Below, one piece after another: positions 3,418-31,366 of a stretch of 33,261 bases of DNA; position 1 is the first letter of the stretch; every line of letters starts with the position of its first letter. The position numbers and the translations under genes were made by a program. The notes below the pieces were generated by a model, which saw only the letters and a list, made by a program, of their open reading frames with translations, had not been told where the DNA came from and did no database searches. Source of the stretch: Saccoglossus kowalevskii. Its lineage: Eukaryota > Hemichordata > Enteropneusta > Harrimaniidae. The stretch spans positions 384,334-417,594 of the forward strand of contig NW_003109084.1 in NCBI RefSeq assembly GCF_000003605.2, read 5' to 3'.

Positions 3418-4208
3418 TTATATTTTACAAAGATACGATAAAAATGTATTCACTTCCTGGCGTATCACTTCCATTGGCATATGAATATTGTTGGGAGCTG
3501 GATAGGATAAATTCATATCCCATACATCTAGGAATATCGCGCCAATTCCGTGGAATATTTTTCTCATTAGGACGTTCATTTCAAACAAATAAAAATCGTT
3601 ACTGTGAATGTATGACGTCAGTACATTATGGTCACGTGGTTTGCTACCTTTTATGAATACGTCACTTCCTGGACATCGTTGTTTAAATCTAAGTAAAGCT
3701 TCTTTGAGTAACTGTAATCTCTCAACGTAACTTTCGCGACTCCACGATGTGTAGTGTGCGTATGGTCCGACTAAGACCACGTAGTTGCATTCTGCGCTCC
3801 GTAAATTATCTATTACGTCAACCTCAAATTTTACTTCGTTTATAGGATAAGGACTGCCCCCAACGGCCCAGGGATGGTGTTGAAAGGTGAAGGAAATATT
3901 GTAAGTAGGTTCAGTCACTTTTCGGTACGTTCTGGCAGCGTGGCGTTTTTGTAAGATTGACCCAAGTCCAAACAATTCGACAACCACGTTGGAAAATTGT
4001 CGAGTGGTGGAATCTCCAAGAAAGTACATATCTTTGCCTTGTAAACATTCCTTGACTGTGATCATTGGTACCTTTTGCCACTGCGTTAATTTGCATAATA
4101 ATGAATGCCAGATGTCTCCTTGCCAATACCCTGACGTGATTGGTTGTTGTAACCCAGATTCACAATATGGTAAATTGTCTTCGTAAACTCTTCCGTGTGG
4201 CGAGTTCG
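3418..4208 (-). CDS. NXPE-like gene, exon 4 (C-terminal PC-esterase-like domain)
   Basis: The acceptor is tatgcatttgtttgcag; the exon opens in phase 1 with ..NSPHGRVYEDN and runs 262 codons to TAA at 3418-3420. Visible family hallmarks: GYWQGDIWHSLLCKLTQW (family pattern G-W-L-C), ECLQGKDMYFLGDSTTRQF with the putative nucleophile Ser in GDS, YVVLVGPYAHYTSW (family: IVITLGQHF), FIKGSKPRDHN (family: ILKTEN), and DVWDMNLSYP...NNIH with the Asp and His expected of an SGNH-like triad. It ends YLCKI, like the YIC terminus of vertebrate members. No stops or indels; catalytic-type residues are intact. Confidence 0.93.
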
Positions 4209-7200
4209 CTGCAAACAAATGCATATACTGTTATTCGTGTAAGTTATAAGTAATTATATTATAGCATTATCAATACCAGTGGATTTTATGACGTCATTGC
4301 AGCAGATTATTCGCGATAATGTATTACATTATTGAGCATCAAGGCCCTGTCCCATGGATATGAATACAATGTTATTTTCGAAAACGAATAAAGAAGAAAC
4401 TATTGAAAGAGAAAAGCAATAGTCAGATAACAAGTATTTAATACTAAAAATAGCATCAAATAAAACGGTCCATAACCAATAACAGCGAATTCCAATATCG
4501 AAATCAGACAATATTGTGAGGAGGGGAGGCAAGGAGGTAGCTGGTACGGTTTTACGGGAAATAAAAAGTTTTTTTTGTTGCAATTTACAATAAAAAAAAG
4601 ACGTTTTTACAGTTTACAGTGTTAAAATATGGAACATTGAATGCGCCGTGTGTATCCACGCATGCGCATGTTACCCTCGTAATGCTCTTCATTCGGTTAG
4701 AGGGCCTTTTACGTCTTGACATTCAATTTTGTAGTGGATTGTGTCATCTAGTCGTTATAAAAGTTTCTATAAAATGTAATTTCCCTGGATTATTTTTTAC
4801 GATATTTTTATTTGGATGTAAATTCTTGTACGTACCGAGAAAAATGACACATTTTTACAGTGTACGAAAAAATATTTGATTGATTACGTTGTACGAACAA
4901 AAAAATATTGCAATTACGTTAAACGAAAGTAGTCTGCTCTGTACGCTAACGCGCGTTCGGTCGAAGCATTCCATCTAGTACGCACGCTTCTAGATTCCGC
5001 GACTGATGGCGCTGTCCTTGTGGTCTCCTCATTAGTTCGCCCTATCGTGTTGATGAAGTGAGGTTAACCGAGGATAATTTATCCAAGCAAATGCGATAAA
5101 CGAAATGGGGGTACAATGTATGTCTACCATCGTGTTGATGAAGTGAGGTTAACCGAGGATAATTTATCCAAGCAAATGCGATAAACAAAATGGGGGTACA
5201 ATGTATGTCTACCAGTCCAGAGAGATGAATTTGTTCTGTTTTTGTAGTGAGTAGTACTACACAATTTGCGAAACGAGATCGACGTAAGACCGGCGTAAGA
5301 CCGCCGTGACTTGTATTATCTCAGCGTCGACTCCCGGTAAATGTAACAGTCCGGGCACAGTTTGCATAAATAAATGAAAGTACCCGTGTTCCCAGGTGTG
5401 TATCTGTTTATTTATACAGTGAGATTAAAATAACTGTTGGTTCACCTTCTAGGATGGCTAACACAAACTAGCTTTCCGGTCATGTTCGTTCGCCCGCTTC
5501 AAAGTTTACGTCCCCCCCCCCCCCACTCAGGATCCATAGGGGGCCGCATGCGCGTTCCCATTTTCTCGGGAAAGAGGGTACTTTTTGACGATCTGTCTCG
5601 GGAACATTTTCCCGAGAAAATCGTAAGAAAAGGGGGTATTTTTTGCTTGTTTTCCCGAGATTCTCAAAATAGGGGGTGTATTTCAAAACACTTCCCGGGG
5701 GGGGGGGTTTTAAAAGGAGTTCTAGACTGAAAAGTTCCCTAGATAGGGGGTGAAATTCATCGGAAAAGCCCATGAAAGAGGGGGTTAAATTTTCTTCTTT
5801 TCCCTAGAGAGGGGGGTGGTCAAAAAAATGAGGGAACAAGCATAGCCCCCCCTAAATATAGGGAGTGGGGGGCCGGGTTTACGTCAAATCCCCGCCCTGT
5901 CGTAGAATTTAAAATAACTCTTACACAGAAAGGACAGTTGCTAATAATATCTACCTTAATAGTTTGAAAACACTAGTGGGATGGGGTAACGATGCAACTA
6001 CGTGCATGTACCCCGGGTACGTACCCCTACGCACAGTCGATCCAGCTGGACCACACCGGCGATTCAGCGTAGCGTAGTGCAAGGCCGCGGCGGACACCGA
6101 TACGACGTACCAGTCACGGCGCGCCGTTAGCTCGGGCGATCACTGCAATGTTACTTCACACCACACATCAGTCACTCATTCACTCGCGGTGCAAATGAGT
6201 TCAATACAATAATATTTGATGGATTAAAATCAGTTTCTTTCTTAGTTTGCCAGTGGAGCTATAGGTTTATAGTTCCATGGTTTGCCATGTGAGATTATGG
6301 AAACAATTTCCAGAAAGACATTTTAAAATATTCCGATTCACGGGCCAGTGACTGTGAAACTACTCCGTTCACTGTAGATTTTTCTCCAATTTTTTCCGCT
6401 TTTTAGAGGCAGCAAATCCACTGGTAATGAGAACGCTACAAAATAATAACAACAATGAACTCCTCGACAACGCATAATGGACTCAAGCACACTTTGTGCT
6501 CCATATATGTACTCGGCTCACGCCTCGTACATATATGTCGCACAAAGTGAGCTTTCGCCCATTATGGGTTGGTGGGTCGTTCATTATTGTTTAAATATAT
6601 ACTATTTACACTGCTCAGTTAAAGCGGGAGCGTCGTCACCTGCGCACGCGCAGGAATTGAGTCATAAGCGACGATAACAACCCATGCTAAAAACTACAAG
6701 GCTCATGGGTAGACGCTTGTTTGTAAACAATGGCACGTTATGGCCATCTGGCGCATGTGCAGGTGACTACTCCCCGCTTTAAGAAAACAAAACTGACGAT
6801 AAATGCAATTACATAATAAAAAGTTATAAATACAGCAGTGTTCATACCTATCTTAATAACATTGGGTCCAGATGTTAATTTCTTCATCAGGAAGTCACTG
6901 CGAGGATAAAAAACGTCTATATTGGTAAAGGTCATAGCTATTAGCATTCGATGACATTGATGTGTGTGACAAGAAGAGCGTAATGGGGGTGATGGGTGGC
7001 AGCTACAAACTACACTACTAGTATCAGTGAATAAATATTGACTTGCAAACGGATCGATAAAGATGTCGGCAGAATGTTGAACTGATAACCTCTGGTCAAT
7101 CAGTTGATGTTTATTTTTGTATCACCTTACTATTTGTATACATTGTTCACTCGTTGTGTTTTGTTTTATTTGCCTGTAGGTGTTTATGAGGAAGGAGATT

Positions 7201-10200
7201 GCTGCACATACTCCGAAACGTGAAATAAACATTTACTCTTTGACCAGATGTTGTTGTGTCTTATGTTCTACTCTTAATCTAGTAAAAGAAATTGTTGTGT
7301 GATAATTCACATACATGCAAGTCATGCATATTAAAAGGTGCGTTTCAAGAAAACTTATGCAAACAAAACCCGAAAAGGCGGCCATTTTCCATAGGATTCC
7401 ATGGTAAACACATTATCCCATTCGAAATATTCAAAATTCTCCAATTTTTTGGGTCACAGCCATATGTAGCCCGCATAAAACTACAGATCGTTTCTAGTAT
7501 AGTTCACCGATATGATGGAATGTTTTTGCCATAGCAACCAATTGGAAACCACTTAAAATACGCATTTTTGATACTAATTGTTTGAGGTCGTTTGATGGGA
7601 AACTTAGTTTGGTGACAATATATTTTTATTTCAAAATTTTGAACATTACAGTCCCCAACCTCTCTTGCTGGATTTCGATGAATTCTTAGTTTGTTTTTAA
7701 GGTAGCAAACTACATTAAATACAGTGTTTATGGTTCGTCATTAAATGGTGGCCAATTTCTTTCCGACACAAATAAGTAATAAAGGTTAATGTCAATAAAT
7801 ACTCTGTGGATTACACACTGTTCCTGGTAAACCTACCTTTTAAACAGAACTTCGTTCTCTTCCAATGCCTGCAATGCCTTCTCGTTCAACCATGTAATGT
7901 TTCCCTGTGTCAACGCAAAGCTGTTGCATGGCAACCAAGACAATTTATCGCAAATAAAGACCGTTTTCCCCTAAAGCGTGTTCGTATGTGTAAACACATT
8001 CATCTTCCGTGTTCTCCAAACCTTGTTCTTTCACTCTTTTTGCAAAACATCGACTGTATGTGTAATTGTTATTTGTTTCCTCAAAATGTCCCTTCCACGT
8101 GATACGATCCCACCGCTGCCACCGATGGTAAAGCCATCTCACAGTTAGACTGGTGTACACCAATGTGATGTCGATTTCAGCAATTCCTGGCCAGGCAGCA
8201 TAGAAATGGACGGTATACGTCCCATTATTGTGATCAACCACACGTCCAACTGTACTAGTTTTAAGTTCCACATTGCGCATAACAGCAAGCCAGAAATCGC
8301 CGCCAGTTGTTCGAAGTTCGCCTTTCATGTTATACGTCACTACTTTTATCAGAAACACCGTTCCTTCATGTACTTCTTCTTTTTCCAATAAATCGAATTT
8401 AGTGATATTCGGATCAGTGAAATCTTCATATTGCTTAATATTGTTCCCGAGTGCTTCACTACTCGGAGAGAAAGTTACTGAAACGTCGGAAATGTTTGGA
8501 TGAAACGCGTTAGATATTTTGGCCAGTGAGGGCGTTCTTTCGGTTGCACTTCGTGGTTCACTTGGATTTAAGTTGTCAGCCTCTGTTGGCCGCGATCGTC
8601 TTCGAACTGTTGTCAGGCTGAAAGATAGTTCTCTTACCTAAGATTATAAAATGTAAACGTCACATTTCAGAAAACACACTGCAGAGCGTGTTTGTATTGT
8701 ACCAGATGGTTGTTCGGATATTCTGGGTTTATACTGCCCGCAAACTATACAATGTGGTAACAAAAAGTTCACATTAGCTCATATGTTTATTTGCAGAATT
8801 ATTACTCAGCTATTGAAAAAGGCGTTTGAAATTGAAAAAGCTAATTGGATCAAATGCCACGAATGAGTAGAATCATCACACAATGCACGCAAAGAATTCA
8901 TTACACTATGCTCGCGCGATGACTTTCGCTTTCGTTTCACTTTTTCGGTCTTTGGAAATATGCATGTGATAAATATATTAGGTTGACGTCATCAAACACT
9001 AGTGTGCTTACCGCCAGAATAGCACTAATTCTTGCTTTCAGTGGTAAATCACTCATGGTAGCTGACACCATCATATTAAGGAATGTCGTTGAATTATATA
9101 TACTGTAAACTAGTTTGTTTTTAAAGGAAACATCAAGCCACACAACATAATGACCCCTCAAGAAAAAGCTCCACAAATGTAGGGGAATGCAAGTTACAGT
9201 ATTTTTATATCACTTTTCATTCTCTCTTTTCATTATCTAGTCAGCCATCTTGATTCTCAAGCAAAAGGTAAGGTATGACATCATAGAATCTGTTGTCAGA
9301 AATTGAGAAAATATTGAGACGAGAAATATTGATGCTAATTAGTTCAAATTTAGTGGTCAACAGGTAATATGTCACCTATATAACCTACTCACACCGGTAA
9401 ATTGTATACAATATAAGGAAATTCGAGCATTTGGTAAAAAAAATACATAAAAATAAATATTTTTAGTTCAGTTTCTATGACAGTTATTTTAGAAGCAAGT
9501 TTGGCACCAGTACATAATGCTACCATGTTCTAAACTTTCAGCCAATTTGAAATTCAACTTTTGAAGTTATAGTTGAAATCATTTTCTCAATTTCTGACAA
9601 CATATTCTATGATGTCATACTTTACCCATAATACTTTGCTGAAGGGTCGAGATGGCGGACTACATAAATTGATGAAAAGTTGAATATCTAGAGAATGAAA
9701 AGTGATATAAAAAACTGTAAATTGCATGTTCTTACATTTGCCGAGCTCTTTTATCTGGGAGTATTATGTTGTTAGCCTTGACTTTCCTTTTTAAAAAGAC
9801 ATTGTAGTTGTTTTGTATAAAATTTATTTTCACTGATTTTTGATGATTTCGATGATTTTTAATAGATTTTATTTTCGTTGAATCGTCCCTTCAGCGAATA
9901 TAGTAGAAACAAACAAAACACTTCACAGTACTGTATATGCAATGATTCTATATACTAGTATTAATATGTTGTAGACATACAGACTGGTTCATACTTGACA
10001 CCGTCTTTGTTTTGCTCCACTAATTACTTATTAATGACGCCGCATGATATATACAGCCAATGGCATCCATTATACGACCCACCTCTTCGACTTTCTCGAC
10101 GAGCGCAATCGAATACTAGTATTACAACTCAATAAGCATGGAAATCACTACATCGTACAAGGTTCTGCGTTAACCTGCGTATTTCGTACATCGTAATATG

Positions 10201-12804: not shown

Positions 12805-12814
12805 GTCACGTGAC
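12805..12814. promoter_or_regulatory. perfect GTCACGTGAC palindrome (CLEAR-type E-box)
   Basis: The 10-bp consensus bound by MiT/TFE factors (TFEB, MITF) in lysosomal genes. It sits about 0.5 kb upstream of the candidate 5' exon of a gene whose product carries a lysosome/melanosome sorting signal. The match is seen; the function is inferred. Confidence 0.45.
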
Positions 12815-13200: not shown

Positions 13201-13326
13201 AATAGATTGGCCCATTGACCCCATTTCAAGCGATCATGGCGTCCTACTGCTTCTAGTTTTTTCGTTGGTTGTTCTTATATTTTTCACGGTGGCGATATAC
13301 AGATTTTGGTTTCTAGTGATAAACTG
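13201..13326 (+). other. candidate noncoding 5' exon of the OCA2-like gene (ends at GTGAGT)
   Basis: Exon A has an upstream acceptor, so a 5' exon is required. AAACTG|GTGAGT at 13327 is a consensus donor and the preceding sequence is less AT-rich than its surroundings. A second consensus donor, GACAT|GTGAGT, lies at 13673. All three frames are open over part of this stretch but none has a usable ATG, so I treat it as 5' UTR. The left limit is arbitrary. Confidence 0.3.
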
Positions 13327-14086
13327 GTGAGTGTTACATGAAACTGGTTTGGGGGTATATCATTCTAACCGCCGTAAGTGGTGCGATTTTCTTGGTGTGA
13401 GACGTTTTTAAGTCTCGCAAATCACGGGGACCCTGTTCATTGTGGTCACGTCTTCCAATACATATTGCTAGGGTAGGTCATTCAACTCGAACCGGTGTTC
13501 TACTTTTATGTTTTAGTTTCGGTGGTTAATATTTGACGAATTGTCACGAGGTTTGCATTGATAGTATCAACATTTTTCACACAGCAAACGTCACAGCACA
13601 ATCGCCGACTGCTATAAACAGTGTATAAACCTCGGCATTTTTAGACTTGCCTGAACAGACCTGTAACGACATGTGAGTGACGTAATGTTGACTTCAATTT
13701 AATCGATGTCGATTTTTTCTGAGCAATTATTTGATTTGCATCAAATCCAAATTGATTTGTAGTTATGATGTTTTCAAAAAAAGTTATAATCTTGTGTAAA
13801 TCTCAGCAGATGAGTTCAAAGGAATGTGGTCTGACATGGTCACAAAAGCGGGTTGGGTAGTATTTAGGGGGGTTATGATAGATAGGTGAATCAAAATGTT
13901 GAAGGGTGGGTGGGTTTGTGTTTGGAAGTAGACTTTTATGTTGGGCTGTGTTGTTTTTCTCAAAATGTCATGACCCTTGAAATATCTGTTTTATCAATAT
14001 TGGAGGTGACCACTGGCAGAAAGTATGCACATTTCCTCCACTAAGTCTTTGTTCTTCAATGGTGAATTCGCTGTATTTTTTCCTGT

Positions 14087-15059: not shown

Positions 15060-16180
15060 TAAATGATGGGGTGCAGTCTTCGGGTTGTATGCACGATGAG
15101 TGTGTGAACACGATTTGATAGTGTTTTGTTGTTCAGAGTTAGTATCTGGCCATTCTAATAAATCAAATTAACTTGTGGGACAAATCGACTTTAGGAAGAA
15201 TCAACCTGTGGGATGAATAGACTTGGGATGAATCGACTGCCCACCTTTCAACCATACCTAACAATGGTGTCACTTTGAATGGTATAGGTAAGCTGAAATA
15301 AGTGTTCAATCCATTCCACACAGGTGGGGGGGGGGGACATTTTTTTCTGTTGTTTTTGTGTCAAATATACATTGACACAAGTGTGTTATCAAGTGGTACG
15401 GCTAATACTTTCAGTTTGACTTGTTTCTGTTTCGTTATGACTGTACTGTACTTGTGTTTCCATGAAGTCATTTCAGAAGTTGGGTGGTTTTTTTTTCTTG
15501 CATTCATTTCCATTTTGTCTTAGAGGTAAATATGTCTATTTATGTCATAACGTATTAAAAATAAAAACATTAGCAGAATAACAATATGTACTGTCAAAAT
15601 GTAATTTAAACTTATTCATAAAATGGGTTTCATTCTTGCCAAAAACATAATCTCTTCCAAAGCTCTGTGACCATATACTGTAACCATGATGCTGTAACCC
15701 ACAAAGTAATCACACTTATTTATTGATATCACAAGCTTTGTTCCACTAATCCAGCTGATTTCAGGCTGGGGATAGAGGGACTCTTGTTTGTTTCTAATGT
15801 TTTACCCTTACAAATCAATAAAAAGTCCACAGTTCCACTGAATTGGCAAATTCTAGGATATCATTGTAAAATATTAAAAAGTAAGTAAAATGTGGCAATA
15901 CAGAATAATTTGTAGAAAAAAATACACACCAAAAATCTGTTTTGGGTGGCAGTGTATTAAATCATGAGTTTGTTTATGTTTGGTCTTAATGTAGCAGGGT
16001 GGAGCTGTTTATATTTGGCTTTACCCAGTAACATGTGTTTTCACAATCCTTTTCCTGCAAAGTAATGGTTGATATTGTAGAAAATTTCATGTGGTAGAGT
16101 CCTGTCCACACTTCAGATTTTAACCTGTCTTATTTCTCACTGCACATGAACTAAAGTTTGATTAATGTTTATCTGTTACA
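15060..16180 (+). other. intron of the OCA2-like gene; no exon recognised
   Basis: Holds the word repeat at 15165-15235 and a G9 run at 15325-15334. The rest is AT-rich intron ending in the acceptor at 16180-16181. Confidence 0.5.
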
Positions 16181-16181
16181 G

Positions 16182-16370
16182 AAATCAACTGGTGTACTTA
16201 AATTGATTGTAGGAGATTATGAGGGAAACCCTTAGCACTAAATCAGGTGAAGAATTGAGTGTTGATATGGCTTCTCTAGATGAAGATATTAAAGTTCGTG
16301 AACATGCCAGTTTAATGGATTCTACCCCTCTATTACATGGATATGGTTCTATACCAAATCACACCAAAGG
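16182..16370 (+). CDS. OCA2/P-protein-like transporter, alternative first coding exon A (acidic dileucine isoform); CDS starts 16219
   Basis: The exon begins after the acceptor tctgttacag and has a 37-nt 5' UTR part. An in-frame TAG at 16210-16212 fixes the ATG at 16219. Fifty codons plus GG (phase 2) precede the donor GTATGT. The peptide runs MRETLSTKSGEELSVDMAS, then a charged stretch, then MDSTPLLHGYGSIP. DSTPLL is an [DE]xxxL[LI] adaptor-binding signal; human OCA2 has ENTPLL in its N-terminal cytosolic tail, where it directs the protein to melanosomes/lysosomes. Joining to exon 26634 is in frame (GG+C = Gly). Because an acceptor precedes it, at least one noncoding 5' exon must lie upstream (candidates end at 13326 or 13672). 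The coding exon is well supported; the OCA2 assignment is tentative. Confidence 0.72.
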
Positions 16371-16980
16371 GTATGTTGTTTATCAGTGATTTACTGTTTC
16401 ATTTTTGAATTTTAATTCCCACAAAAGTGCTTATAAAGTAGTGCTAATTTTTGCAACATACGTTTATTTTGACAATCTCTACTTTACCATGCCGCTGTGC
16501 TAACTAATATTAGCATTTATTATATGGAAGTAAAAAATATTCTAGAAACAACTTTTGAGCAACATTTTTGCCAATTTTTCATATTTTTGAATCCGTGTAT
16601 ACTAATGCAGAGCATCCAGGATCACAGACTGTATTCGTCCAACTGGGCTTTTTCTATGAACCGAATTATAATTTGTAATAATTTCCAGGAGCTATGATAA
16701 TGTTTTGATTTACATGTTCCTTTCGTTCAAGTGTCATTTATTCAGCCACAATTACCAAACGAAAAAAAACGCAGTGAATTGTTGTTCACTTGCATATGGT
16801 AATAGCATACTGCTAGAAATACATTTTTGTTCCCATAGTGATGCCGAATTTATAATTATTATCGTACTCCCATGGTATGTGTCAAGACTTGAAAACTTAT
16901 ACTGTATTTGCTTTTGTTGTACAGCATACTCTTACAAAATTACAGAGTTATGTCTATGGTCAAAATAATTTATTTTTCAG

Positions 16981-17130
16981 TGATTCAGTTTACAATACAT
17001 GCAACTGTCTGTTGGTTTACATTTCTTTCTATTGGAGTGCTTCTGATAGAGCAAATAAGATGGTTAAATCCAAGTGATGAGAAAAAAAGTTAAGGTTGCT
17101 TGTGAATAAACTCCCTTCAATCACTGTTAC
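16981..17130 (+). CDS. possible alternative terminal exon encoding a short membrane helix
   Basis: A strong acceptor (ataatttatttttcag) is followed by an open frame to TAA at 17091-17093, with AATAAA at 17105-17110. In that frame (first complete codon at 16983) it reads IQFTIHATVCWFTFLSIGVL, then IEQIRWLNPSDEKKS: a hydrophobic helix with a charged tail. This frame needs a phase-1 donor. Exon A (phase 2) would instead read DSVYNTCNCL... to a TGA at 17075-17077. Entering from exon A in the helix frame is possible only from the ATG at 16337 (MDMVLYQITPK...), giving a 48-residue peptide. It could be an intronic-polyadenylation isoform of the transporter gene or part of an unrecognised small gene. 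Confidence 0.3.
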
Positions 17131-17765
17131 ATAATGTGTATACCAGTATACAGTACAAGCTTTCTTTCAAAGTCTTTGGCAGTTACTAGTAGTTGGTATC
17201 TAGAATTTGCATATTGGCATCTAAACTTCCAAGAAAGGTTATTCTATTTTTAGTTTCATGATTGCATTCACATATGATTAACTGTATGCTGCTAGCTGTG
17301 TGTGATGTAATATTAGTACTATTAGGATAGTGCTCCATGACAGTTGGATACTCAGACATAAAGCAACCCCATGGAATCCTAACTATGGCTAGTAACAATT
17401 AATATGTATCATATTAATAGTGATTCAACTTCTGAATTCATGAGTTATAAAATCAGAATTTGAGATTACTCAGCTTACCAGCCCTTCATTGGAGATTACG
17501 TTACCATTCAAGTAAGCATCACAAACACTCAGATTCTTCCTACACTCAAAAGAATAATTTATTTCAAATTTCTCATTTTAAAATGTTCTGTTCTTTATTT
17601 CACAACTTTGTATTAGATTTCACAGCAGAGTAGCATTTCCAAAATTTGCATTCAGGCAGACCATGAATAAATGTTACCTAAGTACTACTGGGCATGTAAG
17701 TTTTAATTTTTACCAGCCACTTGAAAAGTCACACTTCTCAGACAGGCAGTAATTTTAAACACTGA
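17131..17765 (+). other. intron; nothing recognised
   Basis: AT-rich sequence without motif-bearing open frames or obvious repeats. Confidence 0.5.
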
Positions 17766-17976
17766 TACTGTAAAACCATTTATACAATTTTTCATTTAAT
17801 TTCACTATTTTGATGTTTTGAGAATATTCACTGTGTTTTAATTTCACAATTTGTCAAAGAAACACTGACTTTTTATTGTTTTTTGACATGTTTACGTAGA
17901 TTTAATTCAGCAGATTTTACTTATCAGTGAAAATAGTAAAATTATAACCCAGTGAATAATTAATGCATTTACAGTA
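17766..17976. mobile_element. TA-bounded fold-back element (family 5)
   Basis: TACTGTAAAACCATTTATAC at the left and GCATTTACAGTA at the right form inverted ends bounded by TA. The interior is AT-rich with mirrored ATTTCACTATTTT and AAAATAGTAAAAT words. Confidence 0.6.
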
Positions 17977-18080
17977 AGGTTAATTATCTTTCCAACAATT
18001 TTGTAAAAAAATTTGTAATTTATCACATGAATATCTCATTTACAGTTGTTTCATTTAATGTAAAATATCACTATCTAATA

Positions 18081-18292
18081 TACTGTAGAATACTTTATTA
18101 TCGCTTGGAATTTATTTTCGCTATTTTCGCTGAAGGGATGATTCCGTGAAAATAAAATCCAGCGAATATACTTTTTCTCCTATATTTTACATTAAACTCA
18201 TCAAAAATCAGTGAAAATAAATTCCATACAAAATGCCCAAAAAGCCTTTTCAGTGAAAATTAATTCCAGCGAAAATAAAGTATTCCACAGTA
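18081..18292 (-). mobile_element. TA-MITE family 3, copy 1
   Basis: Ends TACTGTAGAATACTTTAT and ATAAAGTATTCCACAGTA. The interior carries CGCTGAAGGGATGATTCCGTG and TTCCATACAAAATGCCCAAA, the reverse complement of the copies at 25690 and 26105. The strand given is relative to those copies. Confidence 0.88.
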
Positions 18293-20276
18293 GTAGAATA
18301 AATTTCACAATATTTGCATAAAATATCACTATTTTATGCGAGTTTGAACAGTAATTGAGAGAATAAATGCAACCATTTTATACTGGATATCAATATTTAC
18401 TCCAATAGTGCAATGGCATATTATTATTGATAAAAAAAATTGTAGCACTCAGCATCCATAACATCATGTGCATGTCCACAGAGACATCATGCTCATCAGC
18501 ATAAATTAACATTTAATTTTTTATCATGGTTCCATAAAATTACATTTTTTGTCTTTTGATACTTGAAAGTAGTGATAGGTAGTAATGTGTTAGATGTGTT
18601 ATCACCTGATATAATGCATTCATTCATAGAGCTGATTGAGATAGGTGACCTTATAAGTAATTAATATTCAACTTAAGGTGAGTAGATATTAAATAACATG
18701 TGATGCAACATGTCACTGGTATAAATCACCTCTTCCTCAACTGATATCAAGTGTTAACCATGTAATATTGTGGATTTAGATTGGTGATGTGGTGTATTAT
18801 ACTAAAATCGTTATCATAGTTTCGCTAAGGCATACAATGGTTTATTTTGCTGATGGTATTTCTGTTGTGCTGCAACATATTGTAAAACACAGACTTTACT
18901 GGATCCTAAATAGAACATGCAGTTAAAAAAAATGTTCAAGTTATTTTGTACTTGACATCAAATAATGTAATCTACCAGTAAGCTGATTTCTTGCAGGGAA
19001 TTCAGTTAAAAATCCTCATTTCCTGTGTTCATATCTCAGTAGCCTTTCATATACAATTATTGAACATTAAATTATTATTAAAAATGTCTTTACAAGAATG
19101 CATCACATATGCATGCAGGTGTACATCTTATTGTACAAAAAATGTTAAAAATTTTGAAATCACATTAGGTAATGTTTAGTAAAAAGGTAAGTTTTTTTTA
19201 ATTTTATTTAAAAATATCAGTACTGCTAGGATTACAAATATCAAATGGTAGCTGCTTTCACAGTAGTGATGGACAAAAAAAATTGTTGACCATATGATGT
19301 ACCGGTATTAAATTTACCACATGGGGAACCAGTCTTAAAACTCCTCGACTGAGGGAAGATATTGACCCAAGACATACACATCTACTGGAGTCTTCAAATG
19401 TATGACATTATAAAGGAAACTCAGCATGTGGTGTGAGTGTGTGTGTTATGTGACTGCCATACTGTTATGCTGGAATGTCACAAGTATACTATTTTTATTC
19501 AGTCATTCCATTCTCTGCTGTAAGTGATGCTGAAAAGATTGAGAGTAATATACACTTACAGAAACCAATTCATTTCAAATTAATATAATCTATAAGTATC
19601 ATGAATTAAATGTGTTCGAGCATATTTCTACTATCATACCATTTATACAATTACAATGTATGACTAGCAGTTTTCTGCCAATTTATTTTTATGTCATTGC
19701 TCAGTTTATGCTTATAGAACATGAAACAACAAGAAAGATAATTGAGTATATTTGCATTGTCTTCTTCTAAGAATTGAGTCAGATAATGGAATAACCTGAT
19801 AGGGTATATATTATAATATACATATATGGCACACACCGGAATATCTTGCTATATTATTTAGTGTATAGTGCTGTCTATTTTCTTATAACAGATGTACTTA
19901 TAATGGATAAATTTGTACCACAATTAATTTTCTGAATTTAAAATTGTACAAAAGTAACATTTTTACTTATTTCACTAAAATCACAAAAAATGTCATTTAA
20001 TTGGTTTACGATTTTTGCTGCTCATACTCTATTTCACAGTGCAAATAGAAATACATGTACATGTATATACATACTCAAAATGATACCAGGTGTTTCAAAT
20101 CAGTGAACACATCCTGCTTCAAATGCGGCTCTCGCTACCGTATATATCACAAGACTTAGCTGACTAGTACACCACAGTTAATACATAGTGAACATGTTTT
20201 CAATCCTCTTTCACTTGGAATTCATTTTCTCTTAAAGGTAGAATCTGGGACATTAAAATCTAATGGAATATTTTTT
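18293..20276 (+). other. intron; no supported exon
   Basis: AT-rich. A stretch at 18997-19186 is bounded by AG (cttgcag) and GTAAGT but has an in-frame stop near its end in its only long frame, so it is not called. Confidence 0.5.
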
Positions 20277-20396
20277 TTTTTATATTTGTCATTCATCAAC
20301 TCATCAAAAATCAGTAAAAGTACTATTTATGCAAAACTGATGAAATGTCTTTTCAGCAAAAATTAATTCAAGCTATAATAAAGATTTTGCAGTATA
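20277..20396 (-). mobile_element. degenerate TA-MITE family 3 fragment
   Basis: Contains CAACTCATCAAAAATCAGT, TTTTCAGCAAAAATTAATTC and ATAAAGATTTTGCAGTATA, matching the right half of the copies at 18081 and 27587. Confidence 0.65.
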
Positions 20397-20482
20397 AGAT
20401 AATAATTAATCATGTTTTGAAATTGTATTACAAATGTATGTACGTGCAATAATTCAAATTATCTAGAAGACAAATTTCAAAC

Positions 20483-20589
20483 ATGTGTGCATGGAATGAA
20501 AGGGATTTCCTGCCGAAACCAGAGCTTTATGTAGGCAGTTGTCAGAGCCACAGAAAATCAAAGTCCTGGAAGATTCTTTTTGAAATCAG
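20483..20589 (+). CDS. weak candidate for a third alternative first exon
   Basis: ATG at 20483 opens thirty-five codons (MCAWNERDFLPKPELYVGS...) plus AG, phase 2, before the consensus donor GTGAGG. The phase is the same as first exons A and B and would join exon 26634 as Ser. The patch has more balanced base composition than the flanking intron. No promoter or domain is seen, and the phase match alone has a one-in-three chance. Confidence 0.2.
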
Positions 20590-20844
20590 GTGAGGTTGCC
20601 ATGGAATAAGAGTTATTTCAAGCGCTTGGTGAGAAAATACGCTGCAAACTATAGCGGTGGTTTAACCTTTGTTCGACCCTCATGGTTTCAGAAGTAGGGG
20701 TCAGAGGACTGACACTTTGGAATAACTTACTTTATGAGGAATGAAATAGTGTATTGTGTATGTTTGTGTCCACTCATTTGTTGTCTTGCTCTAGTAATCT
20801 TTATGATTCACCAACTGTCAACATTTATTAGAAGCATGGCGCCT

Positions 20845-21175
20845 TAATGATGTCATTGCCCTATGAAGCCACAGTTTATGTCGTCATTGCCATAATAATG
20901 CATGCCGCAGTTTATGATGTCATTGTCATGTAAAGCCACATTTTGATGATGTAATAGCCATGTGTGAGTTTTATATCATTGCCATATAAAGACAGTTTGT
21001 GATGTCATAATTATATGAATCCAGTTTGTGATGTCATTGTAATATGAAGTCAGTTTGTGATGTCATTGTAATATGAAGACAGTTTGTGATGTCATTGTAA
21101 TATGAAGACAGTTTGTGATGTCATTGTAATATGAAGACAGTTTGTGATGTCATTGTTGTTTAAAGCCCCAATTTG
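20845..21175. repeat. 29-bp minisatellite
   Basis: Units of about 29 bp, TGTCATTGTAATATGAAGAC plus AGTTTGTGA, are near-perfect from about 21028 to 21155. Degenerate earlier units (GATGTCATTGCCATAT..AGCCACAGTTTATG) reach back to 20845. Confidence 0.88.
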
Positions 21176-21257
21176 ATGATATATTAGCCATACTAAAAGT
21201 GTATACATGTAACGACATAGTGATGAACAGTAAAAAACTATCAGGAAGTCAGTGTGG

Positions 21258-21258
21258 A

Positions 21259-21290
<32 letters not shown>
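21258..21290. repeat. (TA)n microsatellite
   Basis: An uninterrupted AT/TA tract of about 30 bp. Confidence 0.95.
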
Positions 21291-21293
<3 letters not shown>

Positions 21294-22277
21294 TTACTTT
21301 AATTCAAATCATAAGATCCATAGCAGAACAGACATCAATGTGTTAATGTATGGCAAGGAACCACCAGAAATACTGAAGGTAACGAAAGTTTGACGATGTT
21401 TGCCCTTAATAGTGCCCTCAGTGTTCAATAACCAAAACATTGTTTTTTTTCTGTCCTGGAATTAAATGCAATTTTGCGGCGATAAGAAATACCTAATTAC
21501 TAAAATGTTTTTTTCTGTTTATTCGCATGTCATTAAGAGACTGATAAACTACTTACTGATAAACTCGCTTATAAACTACATTCCTAACTGTTTTTTTTTT
21601 TTTCGTGACAAAAATAATCGTATTCACATAAATAACGTTGATGGCGCTATAACAATACAACGTTGAAGAAAATGTTTTGATTAATTTGTGGATACGATTT
21701 ACTGCTCTTTGATCAAAATTTATCAGTATACATATAGTCTAGCTTCCGTCAGAAATTCTGTGACGATCGAGTGGTGATTTGTAATGAAATGATTTTGAAA
21801 TGCGACGCTTCATGAAACATGACGCAGTGTACATGCATATTTTCGGGGCGGATTGCGTAATTATGATTCTGTATGTCAGTTTTAGTTATTTCGACGGCAA
21901 CATTGCATGTCGCAGAACTACACGTACTAGAGTGTTTCTATAATTGATTGGTCGTGGGAGCTCATAGCCGAGAGACCGAAAAAGGACACAGTGCGTGCGT
22001 AGAACGACTTGACAGCGTCGATTTGAAATTATATCTGCGATAGTGACTGTGTCCCAATTTTTATGTTTCATGGTCGCCGGGAAGTTGACTGACCGGGCAG
22101 ATGCCCCAACAGCTGCACGTCGCTCAGTCGCCATTATCTGCTAGAAAAAAGGAAAGGCAAACTAAATTAAAAAAAAAGAAAGATTTTGTTGACAAGCCTA
22201 GTAAGACGTCAGTTATAAAAATAATTGCGACCAGTCACTAGATCGTTGAGCGGGATTGCCGTTTTCTTCTCCTAAAT

Positions 22278-22410
22278 CTATAAATAGATTTGCATAATTA
22301 GACCATCTAATTGACGTCACTTTCCGTTGCCTGAGAACGTTCGATGCTTATAATAATGTGCCGGGCATACATCTACGCAGTTGTCGCTCGACTATAATAC
22401 TACAGTAAAC
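22278..22410 (+). promoter_or_regulatory. candidate promoter of isoform B
   Basis: Within about 240 bp of the exon B start codon: a TATA-like CTATAAATAG (22278-22287), an octamer ATTTGCAT (22288-22295), a full CRE TGACGTCA (22312-22319) and a second TATA-like stretch (ctataatac, about 22391). The region from about 21.7 to 22.7 kb is richer in CpG than its flanks. No splice acceptor is evident before the ATG at 22520, so transcription probably starts here. Confidence 0.45.
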
Positions 22411-22519
22411 CAGCTAGGCCAAAAGATGGGTTTTTGAAGTAACGAACAAAAAAAAGCCGGTTGACATTCGCTCGTGTACACACTGTCAGCGACCACAGGA
22501 AGATTTAACTTGCCGCTAA

Positions 22520-22710
22520 ATGAGTACTGCTACGTTCGACGATGACCACGATTTGGACAATGGCATCGATATTACCAAACCGCCGCCGCCACCTCACACC
22601 TTGCTGGCGACGCCGGTCGCGGTGGATACATTGGAACGTATCGGCAGCAAGGCGAGCCTCTGTGCGTACCACCACTGCGTCATTGTAGGGCCTCCATCAT
22701 CAAATTCAAT
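22520..22710 (+). CDS. OCA2/P-protein-like transporter, alternative first coding exon B (no dileucine)
   Basis: An in-frame TAA sits directly before the ATG (22517-22519), so the start is fixed. Sixty-three codons plus AT (phase 2) precede the donor GTAAGC. The peptide opens MSTATFDDDHDLDNGID, has a KPPPPPH run, then LLATPVAVDTLERIGSKAS and a His/Cys-containing end. It joins exon 26634 in frame (AT+C = Ile). Codon use is GC-richer than the surrounding AT-rich intron, as expected for a promoter-proximal exon. Its LL pair has no acidic residue at -4, so this form would lack exon A's classic sorting signal. Confidence 0.68.
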
Positions 22711-25099
22711 GTAAGCTTCGTTTCACTTCACATCCTGCAATTTGCACCAAACATTTTAAAAATTCACACTTTTCAGATATTTAAAAAAAAAGCGAAACCA
22801 GGAAAGCTGGTAGTTGTAGATTTGGACAACTTCGTGCGAGACCGGTATAGTAGCGCCACCAAGAAAGGGATGCGAATGCTAAGTGGTTTTGCATGGTCGT
22901 ATTTCGCAATTACTTTGTATTCTAAGTGTGCAAATGTCAAAGCAAATCGGACTTGCGTTTAATAACTTTAATAAACAAATCTGGGTGTTTCCTCCAGCCT
23001 CATTCTTTTGACACATGGCGAACTGATTTTAATATTGAATGAAGTTTCATTCTCTATAACCAAGCACTCTAAAACAGTTGATTGCCAACCATGTACGTTC
23101 AGTGTATGATATATTAAACATAATTAGTTGTAATAACTTATAATTAAAAAAAACACACAATTAATTGCCTTGTAAATTATTTTGAGATGTTGTTCAAAAT
23201 TAAACTTTTTAATTTCAATTAAACAAAATTATTATTTATACAATTATTTATACCAAAACATAGTTAAAAATACCGATATATAGATGAACAACTCAGTAGG
23301 TAAAAGATTTACAAATTCAGAGTCAATGCTTTTTATCTACACTGTCTATAACTGCTCACATCATCTCTATTTTCCACTAAAATATTTAATATTCTACTTG
23401 CATGCTATCTTCTTGTTTTCAGCTATAATTTATTTAACTCCTTTTCTTGAGTAGTTTTTATTTATATAAAACAATAATGAGAAACTTGGGAATACTTCAT
23501 TTCAAACAGAATGTCTTGTGAGCAAATATTGCTCTGTGATTGTTTCCCAATGATCCCGTCATACTAGTCAGGCTGTCTACATAGAAATGATAGTGTAAGC
23601 TCTCTGATAATAATTTTATTAACGCATAACGCAACTCGTAGATGAGATGAAAGAGGTTACAAAAAGGAATTCAAAACTTCAGTGACGACTTATTTCCTTA
23701 CTGTCTCTTCAAACTCACCTTTCTCACCTCACGTTTCCATCAGGACTATCAGTGACTTTATTTTGTTGTATGAGTTGATTATTCTAAATATATTTTTAGT
23801 GATATGGATACTAAAGTTGTAACAGCTAATAGTTTATATAAGTGATGTTTTACTTTAATTCGGTGTTGAATTACTTAAGAAGAGAAATCTGATTATAATA
23901 ATTCACTATGTCATATGTGTATAGTGGGATCACTGTCCTACTGTGAGGAAAATTGTTAGTGTAGACTCCCTTTTGATCTCCTTATCTACCATGTGATGTA
24001 AGAAACATAATTTACAGTCCCACCTCTTTTTCAAATATCCAATAGTGGTAGTTCAGTGCTGGTAGTTGACTTCTGTCAGCAGATTGTTTTTTTGTGTGTG
24101 AACTGATATGGAAATTTATTGTGTGTAAAAATATATATGCTCCTTTAAATCTAGAATTAAAGCTGAATAAAATGATTTATTTACTTTGGTTTTGAGGTTT
24201 GCAGTGTTTTGGGTATTTTGCTCTCATCTATACATCAACTTCTCATAAAAAGAAATCTAATACAACATGTACTATGTTATTAGCTGACCACAGTGTCCCT
24301 CTATAGACAGGTATGAAAAATGACCGTCTTTCATGGATATGATAAATATGATAATGATAATTAAGACCATATCATTAACGCTGCCCAAAACACTTAACTT
24401 GACACAAAAAGTGATCAGGGAATGTGAAGGAAACATTTTGTGACAGATATTTTAAAATAGAAAAATTAGAATTCAACTTGAACTAGTCCACCATGTTACT
24501 GGCATGCCCATTTCAATTAGTTCCAAAACATGTTTTTTTTTTTCTTCACACCTCAAACAACCATACCATACTACCCTGACTGATCCAATTCATTAACTGT
24601 CTGTTCAATCAGTGTTCAGATTGCTGTACATACTTGGTATGATAAACATATTGCATAACTTAATTTGAAATTTTTGTTGTGCAGTCGGGCTGAAATTTTT
24701 CTGTCATAGCACGTTAAAAATGAGAGAATTTCAGCGCAAATCACTGCAAACTAACTGGCTTTGTGCCCATTCCTTCCTTTTTCCCATTCTATTAAGTCTA
24801 TGGATATACATAAACAAATTCAAAAAAGTAACTTTTCTTTTCAAATTTGCCTTGTGTATGCTATCTGGCCTGTACCCTTTAGTGAGATGGCTTATATTTC
24901 AACCTGAACAAAATCTAATTTTTCTTTTGAGGAATCTCAATTTTATGTTACATTTGGTTGACTTGATGGTCTGGCTATTTAACATATTAGTGTTGATGTG
25001 GTTCATATACATTTTTCCTCCCAGATTTTGACCAGAATGGCTGACATTTGTATGGCGGTCATTTTATTTTTTTATTTATCTTCATGCCATTTTCCATTT
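22711..25099 (+). other. intron after first exon B; no exon recognised
   Basis: Strongly AT-rich. The longest open frame (24720-25031) is hydrophobic low-complexity translation of T-rich DNA. Confidence 0.5.
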
Positions 25100-25250
25100 C
25101 CATACTCTCCAACAGTTGCTATGATGTCACACTTTACCCACAGTCCTTTGCTAGAGAATCAACATGGTGGACTACACGCAATACTAAAATATCTAGAGAA
25201 TGAACATTTGTGGAGCTCTTTTATTTGGAAGCATTATGTTTTCTCTTTTA
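25100..25250. mobile_element. fragment of fold-back MITE family 1 (copy C)
   Basis: Contains ATGATGTCACACTTTACCCA, GAGAATCAACATGGTGGACTAC, ATATCTAGAGAATGA and TTTGTGGAGCTCTTTTATTTG in the same order as the right halves of copies A and B. The left half is missing. Confidence 0.75.
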
Positions 25251-25689
25251 ATCTTTTTACTTGAAGCAATCATTCTAGAATTGAGATTATGCATTCCATA
25301 GATTTTATGTTGAGCTGGTTTAAACTAACTTTGCCCAATTCATATTCTCAGGGTTGTGAATTTGTACATGCAACGATTCGCATCAGTAGCAAACAGGCAT
25401 GCACGTAATGTACAATGTATAATCAATCTGCTTTGCCAAACCATTCGTGAATGAATCGGGTGAGGGGTAAGAATAAAAAATATATAGGCAGGATACTGTA
25501 ACCATGAGTAAGGTTAAATTCTCGTATATTCACTTGTATTAATAATCACACCTTCTTGCAGCAAATGGGTATTTCTTGAATTACCTAGTACCCCTACGTG
25601 CCTTTACAAAGTTGTCTGTCAGGACATTCAGAGATTGTTAGTACAATTATAGTTTTAAAATGGTGTATTGATAGCACTCTGAGAATATT

Positions 25690-25866
25690 TACTGTAGAAT
25701 ACTTTATTTTCGCTGGAATTAATTTTCGCTGAAAAGGCTTTTTGGGCGTTTTGTATGGAATGTATTTTCACTGATTTTTAATGTGAAATATAGGAAAATA
25801 AGTATATTCGCTGGATTTTATTTTCACAGAATCATCCCTTCAGCGAAAATAAAGTATTCTACAGTA
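25690..25866 (+). mobile_element. TA-MITE family 3, copy 2
   Basis: Ends TACTGTAGAATACTTTATTTT and AAAATAAAGTATTCTACAGTA are near-perfect inverted repeats bounded by TA. The interior has GGCTTTTTGGGCGTTTTGTATGG. Confidence 0.92.
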
Positions 25867-26104
25867 TTTTAATTTCATGCACGTTTCATTCAAGGCCGTA
25901 ATATATTGTCATCGTCGTCAAGATATTTCTTACACGAAAAATTCAACAATTCCTATAATTATTCTGTTTGATTTTTTTATCTAATTATTAAATGTTTTTT
26001 AAAAATTGCCAAGAAGTAGTTTAGTTATACCAATAATGTGACAACTCTATCATTGACGTAATTTACTTCAAGAGGGAAAGGGATACTAATTCAGAGAAAT
26101 AAGT

Positions 26105-26298
26105 TACTGTAGAATACTTTATTTTAGCTGGAATTAATTTTCTCTGAAAACACTTTTCAAGTGTTTGTATGGAATTTATTTTCACTGATTTTTGACAAGT
26201 TGAATGTAAAACATAGGTAACATTGTATATCCGCTGGATTTTATTTTCACTAAATCATCCCTTCATCGAAACTAGCGAATATAAAGTATTCTACAGTA
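26105..26298 (+). mobile_element. TA-MITE family 3, copy 3
   Basis: Same ends (TACTGTAGAATAC..GTATTCTACAGTA) and orientation as copy 2. It lies 335 bp upstream of exon 26634-26735. Confidence 0.9.
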
Positions 26299-26633
26299 TT
26301 ATAAAATTCCTTAGCCTGCATACATGTAATGTATGTAATAATTGTATTTATGTGCTTTTCTAAAAACAAAGGGAAAAAAACAACGTTGTAATGTAGGTTT
26401 TATGAATGAAAATTTGCATAAAATATGCAAACACAAAAAAGGGATATATGCTGTGGCTTCATGGACAATATTACGCCTGTCTTATAATGCACTACTCTAG
26501 TACATATGTAACTGTTCGCAATTACAAATTGTTGAGAAATTTTTGAACTCCATAATTCCCATTCTGTTTATAGTCAAAGAGAACACTGCAGTAGCTGGTA
26601 ATTCATACTTGTCATTGTTTTCTTTTTTTACAG

Positions 26634-26735
26634 CAAAGATCAAGACACAGTTGATGTGCACACATTTACTTTCCATGATCATGAGAAGAAAATTAAGAAA
26701 AAAAGATTGGGATGCATAGTGCATGGAACCACCAA
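26634..26735 (+). CDS. OCA2/P-protein-like transporter, shared exon (cytosolic tail)
   Basis: Flanked by acceptor tctttttttacag and donor GTGAGT. The exon is 102 nt (a multiple of 3), phase 2 in and phase 2 out. It encodes KDQDTVDVHTFTFHDHEKK followed by the basic run IKKKRLG and CIVHGTT. This resembles the tail of OCA2-type proteins, which is charged and becomes basic just before the first membrane helix (positive-inside). Both upstream first exons and the downstream exon fit its phases, the main evidence that these are one gene. Its length means skipping or circularisation would not shift the frame. Confidence 0.78.
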
Positions 26736-27209
26736 GTGAGTCTATCCGTCTATAACTACCCATACACACACCCACTTAAAACACTTTTTCCATCCCACCC
26801 ATCAACCACAAACACACCCACTGACTGACTGATCGATCAATTGGTTTATTTGGTCATACAGTCATTCATTTTTATAATTTCCAAATATATTTTTTTTTTA
26901 TTTATTGTATAATTATTACATAGCAATCCTTTTATACAATGTCACAAAATTTGCAGAAATGAGAACATAATCTTCGCAAATTAAACCATGGCATTTATAC
27001 CTATGTTTGATTTTGTGTTGTAACTTTTTACAGCCAATACAATTATAATTCTGTATATAAATACAAGCTGTTGAAATATAACTGTAAAAGCATGTAATAC
27101 CTAAACCTACCCTCAGATGTCTGTTTCGGGATATAACCGTCTCAGTTGATTCACCATATTTTCTGTTTAATCTATTGGGAAGGCATGCATTGCTTTATAG
27201 CGTATATAA

Positions 27210-27232
27210 TCTCTACTTACTTACTTACTTAC
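27210..27232. repeat. (CTTA)n microsatellite
   Basis: Short ACTTACTTACTTACTTACT tract in the intron between 26735 and 27890. Confidence 0.85.
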
Positions 27233-27586
27233 TGATTATCACACTATGACGTACAAAAGATTAATAGTTTAAACAAAATAATGGTGTCCCATGACTCCAT
27301 AGTGCAATCCCAGGGATTAACAACTTCCCCTTTAAAAAGATTTGATGCTGTTTTCTTTTTGTCTCTGTTATTCTGTTATAATGAACAAAATATTGAACTG
27401 ACCTCCCATGGTATGAATGTAGTAGTAATGTGTATAGAAAATCAGCAAAGTGTGTCAATATACTGTCATTGATTTTTAATTTCCTGCCCAGTAATTTAGA
27501 CTTTATAATTACTTTTCCAAAGCAATTGTTTATTGTTTGATGACATTACCACGGTTTATTAATTGAACGCTTTACCATGGTACATG

Positions 27587-27798
27587 TATTGTAAAATACT
27601 TTATTTTTGCTTGGAATTAATTTTCGCTATTTTCGCTGAAGGAATAATTCAGTGAAAATAAAATCCAGCAAATATACCTTTTTTCCTATATTTTACATTC
27701 GACAAGTCAAAAATCAACGAAAATTAATTCCATACAAAACACCCAAGAAGACTTTTCAGCAAAAATTAATTCCAGCTAAAATAAAGTATTTTACAGTA
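27587..27798 (-). mobile_element. TA-MITE family 3, copy 4 (inverted)
   Basis: Ends TATTGTAAAATACTTTATTT and AAATAAAGTATTTTACAGTA with an interior in the opposite orientation to copies 2 and 3. It ends about 90 bp before exon 27890-27947. Confidence 0.88.
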
Positions 27799-27889
27799 AC
27801 CATGAAGAAATAACCTCAACATATGCAAGCATTCTCTATAAAGAACTTCTATTTATTAATTGATTATTGTTTTTTTATTTTATCTTTAG

Positions 27890-27947
27890 GCAATTGATGA
27901 AACATATTAAAGTAGCCACCATTTTCAGTCTAACTGTTCTCTGTGCT
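27890..27947 (+). CDS. OCA2/P-protein-like transporter, shared exon (start of first membrane helix)
   Basis: Flanked by acceptor tatttttatctttag and donor GTAAGT. One base completes Lys (AA|G), then nineteen codons give QLMKHIKVATIFSLTVLCA, ending in phase 0. The segment is a basic flank followed by a hydrophobic helix. It lines up with the first helix of human OCA2 (WLKVMGLFAFVVLCS): K-V, F and V-L-C fall at the same positions. The rest of the transporter (SLC13/ArsB-like IT superfamily) would be downstream; I found no convincing next exon before 33261. Another multi-pass lysosomal protein with a dileucine tail remains possible. Confidence 0.7.
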
Positions 27948-29611: not shown

Positions 29612-29668
29612 CATATACCATTAAAAATGCCATATATACAGTATATATGGCATTTTTAATGGTATATG
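29612..29668. repeat. perfect 57-bp palindrome at the edge of the 21-bp satellite
   Basis: Two 28-bp arms, CATATACCATTAAAAATGCC... and its exact complement, around a single A at 29640. The arms are made of the satellite unit, so the array flips orientation here. Confidence 0.95.
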
Positions 29669-29831
29669 CCACAAATATGCCACAAATACCATCAAATATG
29701 CTACATATACTATCAAATATGCTACATATACTATCAAATATGCTACATATACCATGTACATGTATAACATCAAATATGCTACATATACCATCAAATATGC
29801 TACATATACCATCAAATATGCTACATATACC
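29669..29831. repeat. 21-bp satellite, left part
   Basis: Tandem units CATCAAATATGCTACATATAC with a few variants. The array is continued at 31128-31366 beyond the inserted element. Because 21 is a multiple of 3, both strands read as 7-residue peptide repeats, which I regard as non-coding. Confidence 0.92.
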
Positions 29832-31127
29832 CAGTGTTCTCCCCAGAAAAATGTATCAGAGTGGTGGCTAATTTGCATATAATTTACATATCATTAGCAT
29901 ATGTCTGGAGATAAAGAAAGCAACAATGACAGGCTTGCATGGATGAAATTATGTCTTTATTTTTTAACAAATTTATGTACAAGATTAAATGAATCTGCTG
30001 CTGTGTGATTCCTATGTAATGTTGATTCTTCGGACTTTCATGGAAGCCCAGTGATCTGCAGCTTTTGAGAACGCCGTGATTTTCTTTGCTTCCCACTTCT
30101 AATGACATGGCCTTCTTGTGCATCTCTGAGTGTGCGTGTTTAGATAGCATATTTCGTAATATTTATACATGGCATAGAATTCCATACCAAAGAACTATTT
30201 CTGGATGTTTTTAAGTTGAATTTTCCACATATGTGACACAGCATTCCTAAAAGATAAGAAATAGGAGCGAATCAATACTTGTATTTAAAAAATATCGCCA
30301 CGATCAACACGAAAATAAACAAATTGACGCCATTTTGAAAAGTCGCTAAACTAAAAAATTGACACGATAAAATTTACCCAACTATTTCAAAACACAATAC
30401 TAGTATTAGTTATTTTGATAAATCGTAGCCAACAATTTTTGAACTTCCAGAAAGAAAGTCGTTTCCAAAAAAATGTTTCGACGATCGGCAAAAACTGAAG
30501 CCATACAAAAGTTTACTAAACTAGGTCAAAATACGCTTCCAAGTAAAACGCTACAAATAAATACTTTTTTTACCTTTGCCATCGGATGTTTCTCTCAGCC
30601 ACGTATATTTTGTTGTCCATTGTGCATCAAATCCAGAGTTTATTTTTTTGCACCCTTCGTTGTAGCATCATCTTGGACACGTTTAGTACCACTGCCGACA
30701 GGGGTACCGGTGACAGCGTTGCTGGTGGGTTTATCGCTCGCAACCAGGGGCCCAGCAGGGCGTTCTACGCGGAACCACGACGTAATATTTCTGCTTTTTG
30801 ACATCGTTGCTTCTTCCAGCCGAATATGCTACTGAGAAAATACTCGCTATTACCCCAATTAAATAGGGCGAAAGTGTTTATTGTCGAAGTACGAAGCTGT
30901 ATTAGTCCATTGTCTTTGCGTAATCACTGACATGTTTCCATTCACACCTGATTTGGCTCACAGTACCGGACGCTGATGATGCTGACTAACAGATTCGCAC
31001 GTGTATTTACAAGCTAAAACAAAGAGTAACAGGAAATGCCACAGAGTAGTGGGCAATCTCTCAGAGTAGCGGCATAAATAATAGAGTAGCGGCCCCGCTA
31101 CGCTAAAACGCTTTGGGGAGAACACTG
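29832..31127. mobile_element. hAT-superfamily element, 1296 bp, inserted in the satellite
   Basis: Perfect 14-bp terminal inverted repeats CAGTGTTCTCCCCA / TGGGGAGAACACTG and a perfect 8-bp target duplication CATATACC (29824-29831 and 31128-31135), both hAT hallmarks. Subterminal copies of AGAGTAG(T/C)GG occur near 31043, 31063 and 31083, with CAGAGTGGTGG at 29857, as expected for transposase-binding repeats. On the minus strand, MLCHICGKFNLK (ATG at 30244) and, in another frame, MLSKHAHSEMHKKAM (ATG at 30150) look like a broken CxxC...HxxxxH zinc finger of the kind in hAT proteins. No transposase core is present, so it is a non-autonomous deletion derivative. Confidence 0.9.
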
Positions 31128-31366
31128 CATATACCACATACTATGCTACACATACCATTAAATATGCCACATATGCCATCAAATACGCCACATATACCAT
31201 CAAAAATGCCACATATACCATCAAATATGCTACATATAAAATCAAATATGCTACATATAACATTAAATATGCTACATATAACATCAAATATGCTACATAT
31301 AACATCAAATATGCTACATATACCATCAAATATGCTACATATACCATTAAATATGCCAATAAACAT
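31128..31366. repeat. 21-bp satellite, right part
   Basis: Same unit as the left part (ATATGCTACATATACCATCAA) with variants ending ATAACAT or ATAAAAT. It begins with the duplicated CATATACC of the hAT insertion. Confidence 0.92.

Follow-up and report, generated by a model that had tools for sequence, protein, structure and literature searches.

A candidate internal CpG-island promoter and alternative first exon without a dileucine signal in an OCA2-like transporter gene of Saccoglossus kowalevskii

Forms that differ at the N-terminus, in some cases by a dileucine signal, have precedents in other membrane protein families. In mouse, an alternative promoter of Tpcn1 gives rise to the forms Tpcn1A and Tpcn1B, and the TPC1B protein is reported to lose one N-terminal dileucine and yet to stay late-endosomal/lysosomal (PMC4386455). 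The long and short forms of SLC2A9 (GLUT9) differ solely in their N-termini, and splicing alters their trafficking according to the title of a paper cited in PMC3883675. In human OCA2, three dileucine motifs of the N-terminus are described as needed for melanosomal targeting via AP-1 and AP-3 (PMC10372470; PMC13195334; PMC10235903), and an LL-to-AA change in TMEM163 leads to missorting to the plasma membrane (PMC13195334). Here we analyse an OCA2-like transporter gene of the hemichordate Saccoglossus kowalevskii in a stretch of 33,261 nucleotides (assembly GCF_000003605.2, contig NW_003109084.1, positions 384,334 to 417,594 of the forward strand; hereafter the window, whose coordinates are used throughout). 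Two candidate alternative N-terminal exons, exon A with an acidic dileucine motif and open reading frame (ORF) B without one, can by sequence be joined to a single acceptor in a common phase, and ORF B lies in a CpG-rich island that may be an internal promoter.

The arrangement would share with mouse Tpcn1A/B an internal alternative promoter, a shorter N-terminus and the loss of an N-terminal dileucine in an endolysosomal membrane protein, but TPC1B belongs to another family, is a truncation and keeps a second dileucine, and the mouse forms were established by reverse transcription PCR, cap analysis of gene expression and imaging, whereas the OCA2-like case is predicted from sequence (PMC4386455). 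SLC2A9 likewise belongs to a different family (PMC3883675). Human OCA2, a member of the same transporter family, also has an acidic dileucine in a cytosolic N-terminal tail, with three dileucine motifs in one tail compared to one in exon A (PMC10372470; PMC13195334). No alternative promoter of OCA2 is described in the literature searched, which comprised titles and the beginnings of abstracts with subscription papers mostly outside, and no plasma-membrane transporter combining an alternative first exon with a dileucine was found there either. The OCA2-like gene would thus vary a theme already known from other families.

A first, sequence-only reading of the window had assigned the gene to the OCA2-like transporters, and the downstream exons, located on the same contig at 41.7-55.5 kb, bear this out. 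Five of the six downstream exon pieces matched the Pfam family CitMHS (PF03600) at E<=0.1 and two of them passed Pfam's cut-off (6.2e-16 and 7.1e-10); human OCA2 is annotated with the same family (PMC10372470). Residues were compared at those positions of the human protein that are named in PMC10372470 and PMC8347052. With V443 as anchor, M395, D408, V443, A481 and N489 are identical to human OCA2, and F385Y, E403D and R419K are conservative changes. We take V443 to lie in the segment LDNVTT. The distance from W679 to P743 is 64 residues both here and in human OCA2, given a tentative exon join. Against membership in the OCA2 / P protein family, H668 is replaced by L as judged from the W679 spacing, and no position could be assigned to K614 or H615. 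A PDB search by exon returned one ArsB-type match (E 0.00013), no match for the last exon piece and nothing credible for the tail encoded by exon A. Taken together, the CitMHS matches and the shared residues identify the gene, at the level of its predicted protein, as OCA2-like. The exon at 45.67 kb, searched as a check for paralogues and haplotypes, matched only itself in the genome. Immediately beyond the right end of the window, a run of N some 3.4 kb long may hide exons.

Exons A and B each have an in-frame stop just upstream of the ATG, end in phase 2 at a donor and can be joined in frame to the shared exon at 26634; this anatomy had been proposed before and we could confirm its coordinates in the sequence. 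Splicing was predicted from the sequence, with hand-made scores ranked against all GT and AG sites at 12-28 kb. The ATG of exon A (16219) follows an in-frame TAG 9 nt upstream, and its donor (GTATGT after 16370) ranks 20 of 1020; the ATG of ORF B (22520) follows a TAA 3 nt upstream, and its donor (GTAAGC after 22710) ranks 29 of 1020. The acceptor at 26634 is the best of 742, and the donor of the exon ending at 27947 ranks 34 of 1020. Exon A had been regarded as a first coding exon, and its coding start, stop, donor and phase stand, but it begins at an acceptor (AG at 16180-16181), so that one or more leader exons must lie upstream and A can be the second exon at the earliest. The best donors at 12.0-16.2 kb are those at 13326 (score 7.0) and then 15323 (6.64), and the former is presumed to end the leader. 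The segment 13058-13326 is itself an ATG-less open frame with a hydrophobic end at the 13326 donor, in phase 2 with 26634 by chance.

The dileucine signal distinguishes the two first exons. DSTPLL is the sole [DE]xxxL[LI] motif among the seven protein pieces scanned, so that its assignment to exon A only holds, and neither [DE]xxxL[LI] nor a YxxPhi motif occurs in B plus the shared N-terminal exons. The general pattern [DE]xxxL[LI] appeared in 13.7% of 20,000 shuffles of exon A, and the narrower [DE]xTPLL in 0.045%. The corresponding letters in human OCA2 are ENTPLL. The DNA pattern of DSTPLL has one match elsewhere in the genome, in unrelated-looking sequence. A cytosolic N-terminal tail with an acidic dileucine, as in the OCA2 family, would accordingly be a property of the predicted A isoform only.

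The evidence for a second transcript start comes from the CpG profile. The gene body at 15.2-56.2 kb is CpG-depleted, with a median observed/expected ratio of 0.41 (186 windows of 600 bp), but the ratio reaches 1.32-1.49 at 21.4-22.8 kb and falls to 1.06 at 22.6-23.2 kb. Only two patches of the gene body exceed 1.1, at 21.2-23.2 and 30.0-31.0 kb. A young repeat as the source of the island around ORF B was considered and rejected: the segment 21335-23400 is single copy at the search sensitivity used, the sole genome match of 21900-22720 is itself, and the only parts of 21200-23400 that match elsewhere are the leftmost 55 or so bases and the TA repeat at that edge. Having no other copies in the genome, the island differs from the patch at 30201-31050 and is not a recognisable young repeat. 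The latter is a young dispersed CpG-rich repeat found at 18 other places in the genome with 89-98% identity; on either side of it stands an array of a nearly identical tandem repeat of 21 nt, of the CATATACCATCAAATATGCTA type (29664-29831 and 31128-31356). A set of dispersed elements related to one another occurs in both orientations around the two introns (18078-18292, 25689-25874, 26103-26304 and 27584-27804). In oyster, gene bodies are reported to be methylated in a mosaic way while promoters are generally unmethylated (PMC4378273). The simplest reading of the region at 21.4-23.2 kb may likewise be that of an internal promoter unmethylated in the germ line, and the CpG island, together with TATA-like and cAMP response element (CRE)-type sequences, would be an indirect sign of a second transcript start.

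We therefore consider one OCA2-like gene extending from about 13 kb to about 55.5 kb that may well have two promoters, a model for and against which the sequence seems to us evenly balanced. From the upstream promoter near 13 kb, a leader exon would be spliced to exon A, giving a cytosolic tail with DSTPLL and YGSI. Transcripts from the internal promoter would lack exon A, and their simplest junction would be 22710 to 26634. Because the island begins 6 kb downstream of exon A, any plus-strand island transcript entering the gene by ordinary splicing would do without A and hence without DSTPLL, and this loss would not depend on use of the B ATG, since exon A precedes the island start. The protein of such a transcript could start at the B ATG, which would give it a 64-residue tail free of any acidic dileucine. 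The other possible start is Met 27897, the first in-frame Met of a B-less transcript, just 5' of the presumed first membrane helix. Either start might alter sorting through AP-3/AP-1. Transcription from both promoters, the two junctions and the use of the B ATG are all predictions of this model, and that an internal promoter feeds the gene at all appears to us about as probable as its opposite. The positions of the features are collected in Table 1.

Table 1. Features of the OCA2-like gene discussed in the text, in window coordinates
Feature	Position	Strand	Basis or remark
Perfect CLEAR (TFEB) palindrome GTCACGTGAC	12805..12814	.	upstream of the presumed A promoter; distance to the 13326 donor about 510 bp
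Presumed non-coding leader-exon donor GTGAGT of the A transcript	13327..13332	+	top-scoring donor at 12.0-16.2 kb; inferred
Exon A	16182..16370	+	coding sequence 16219-16370, phase 2 end
DSTPLL acidic dileucine signal (residues 34-39)	16318..16335	+	motif scan, exon A
YGSI, YxxPhi-type motif of exon A (residues 42-45)	16342..16353	+	motif scan only
CpG-rich island, presumed internal promoter	21400..23200	.	CpG; 21335-23400 matches only itself in the genome
TATA-like TATAAAAA	22214..22221	+	weak evidence
TATA-like TATAAATA	22279-22286		in island
Palindrome TGACGTCA in island	22312..22319	.	motif count
ORF B, candidate alternative first coding exon	22520..22710	+	phase 2 end
Shared exon (KDQDTVDV...HGTTK)	26634..26735	+	phase 2 in and out; donor 4.95
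Shared exon, start of presumed first membrane helix	27890..27947	+	sequence

Several results weigh against an internal promoter with a coding first exon. First-ATG ORFs of at least 45 amino acids followed by a donor of comparable quality were counted in 73,195 known bases, and 13 were found on the plus strand versus 12 on the minus strand; with the counts alike on both strands, the anatomy of ORF B alone is not above chance. Five such combinations fall within 12-28 kb, three of them in phase 2, namely A, B and 16714-16874, so that a second phase-2 candidate exists in the same intron as B. Codon usage, trained on 1093 codons from other exons of the OCA2-like gene and the neighbouring NXPE exons, gave no signal for ORF B (112 of 500 shuffles at or above its score); the corresponding figures are 21 for exon A, 51 for the shared exon and 280, 337 and 383 for three other ORFs. 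The B ATG has a weak start context, with T at -3, and a transcript capped far enough 5' would carry upstream ORFs at 22344, 22356 and 22426 (the last one of 3 codons) ahead of it. The CpG control consisted of 20 stretches of 10 kb on two contigs, of which six were all N and 14 usable. Since 30 of its 430 windows of 1200 bp reach 1.25, CpG content in this genome is a mosaic, and although the maxima are 0.60-0.84 in the five stretches where depletion prevails (177 of these windows), one mixed stretch reaches 1.27; an island between two depleted flanks was found at none of 9 such positions (of 55 testable), and this control is small. The sequence-only reading of B as an alternative first coding exon thus retains its open frame and in-phase join but not its coding start, given the codon usage, the T at -3 and the upstream ORF at 22426. 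The island would lift B above the chance level at which the ORF and donor alone leave it, and we hold B as an actual coding first exon only tentatively, with the balance leaning the other way.

These same observations favour an explanation in which the island is an intronic enhancer or the promoter of a non-coding, perhaps antisense, RNA, exon A is the sole start and B with its donor a chance frame; such a reading of the island has to be reckoned with, as the ORF-donor combination is at chance level and B has neither a codon signal nor a strong start context. The most simply placed donor of the island, however, matches the phase of the strongest downstream acceptor, which would happen by chance in one third of cases, and no Rfam family matched within the window. 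We regard this explanation as somewhat unlikely. According to a further alternative, transcription does start at an internal promoter, but from a first exon that is non-coding for the transporter, and translation would begin at Met 27897 to give an N-truncated protein comparable to mouse TPC1B. The lack of a codon signal in B, the upstream ORFs and the weak context would all fit, and a precedent is described (PMC4386455), but the 64-codon frame of B is open and joins in phase, and such a protein would be deprived of the basic stretch that the shared exon encodes ahead of the first helix. We regard this start as improbable. That the island stems from a transposon, as an old or rare fragment still retaining its CpGs, as the repeat nature of other CpG-rich patches of the gene (30.2-31.05 kb and the dispersed elements at 25.7-26.3 kb) might suggest, is very improbable for a segment that matches only itself and that, if old, should have decayed in a methylated gene body.

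Other exon arrangements were tried and rejected. Inserted between A and 26634 as a cassette, ORF B would not keep the frame with the acceptors found: only two at 22.10-22.69 kb score at least 0, giving exons of 212 nt with a stop or of 22 nt, and both break the phase. An extra exon between B and 26634 (acceptor 25352, donors 25459 or 25466) was excluded from the model on account of a stop in B's phase with either donor. The exon-like pair 25352-25459 combines a strong donor (6.99) with a stop in every frame, and B-type transcripts could include it as a non-coding exon. The search for a nested gene was negative: Pfam matched neither the three plus frames of 22700-26633 nor the three minus frames of 16371-22300, a scan that left out the minus strand at 22.3-26.6 kb and the plus strand at 16.4-22.7 kb. 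On the minus strand at 3418-8637 the window contains an NXPE-family gene, in which 3418-4230 matches the NXPE4_C domain (PF24536, 3.1e-51) and 7945-8637 gives a Neurexophilin-type match (PF06312, 1.1e-11).

Motifs in the two presumed promoters were sought after the sequence had been read and are thus post hoc. Upstream of the presumed A promoter lies a perfect palindrome of the Coordinated Lysosomal Expression and Regulation (CLEAR) type, for which the consensus was taken from PMC9562866. It occurs once in the window, and 3 of 100 shuffles contain one. Across 572 Mb of the genome there are 1832 copies, roughly one every 312 kb, compared to 352 of the reversed pattern, suggesting that the CLEAR palindrome may be widely used in this animal. 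The island holds TATA-like sequences, but TATAWAWR occurs 69 times in the window versus 35.5 in shuffles, many within a TA repeat, and is weak evidence. The palindrome in the island, TGACGTCA, which is presumably of CRE type, occurs four times in the window against a shuffle mean of 0.46, the other three copies lying in the NXPE region; E-box and M-box counts in the window were not above those of shuffles. It is tempting to imagine a CLEAR-driven promoter of the TFEB/MITF type for a dileucine form in lysosomes or pigment organelles, and a CRE-bearing CpG-island promoter for a signal-less form at another membrane, e.g., the cell surface, but we consider this division of labour unlikely.

The idea that promoter choice decides the organelle, as the sequence-only reading had it, is plausible, but nothing beyond plausibility can be claimed for it, as mouse TPC1B is still endolysosomal after losing its dileucine (PMC4386455). 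Moreover, a shared loop contains YSRM, a YxxPhi motif that speaks against a switch, and with other exons outside the motif scan, sorting could survive the loss of exon A. A real sorting switch seems to us rather unlikely. Little is known of what OCA2 does beyond pigment organelles or in animals that lack vertebrate melanocytes. If the two-promoter model is true, a signal-less isoform would make the transporter accessible to current recordings at a different membrane, and promoter choice would be tied to organelle address within one gene. Where a methylated gene body is depleted of CpG, that contrast can also reveal internal promoters in an animal genome for which only the DNA sequence is at hand.

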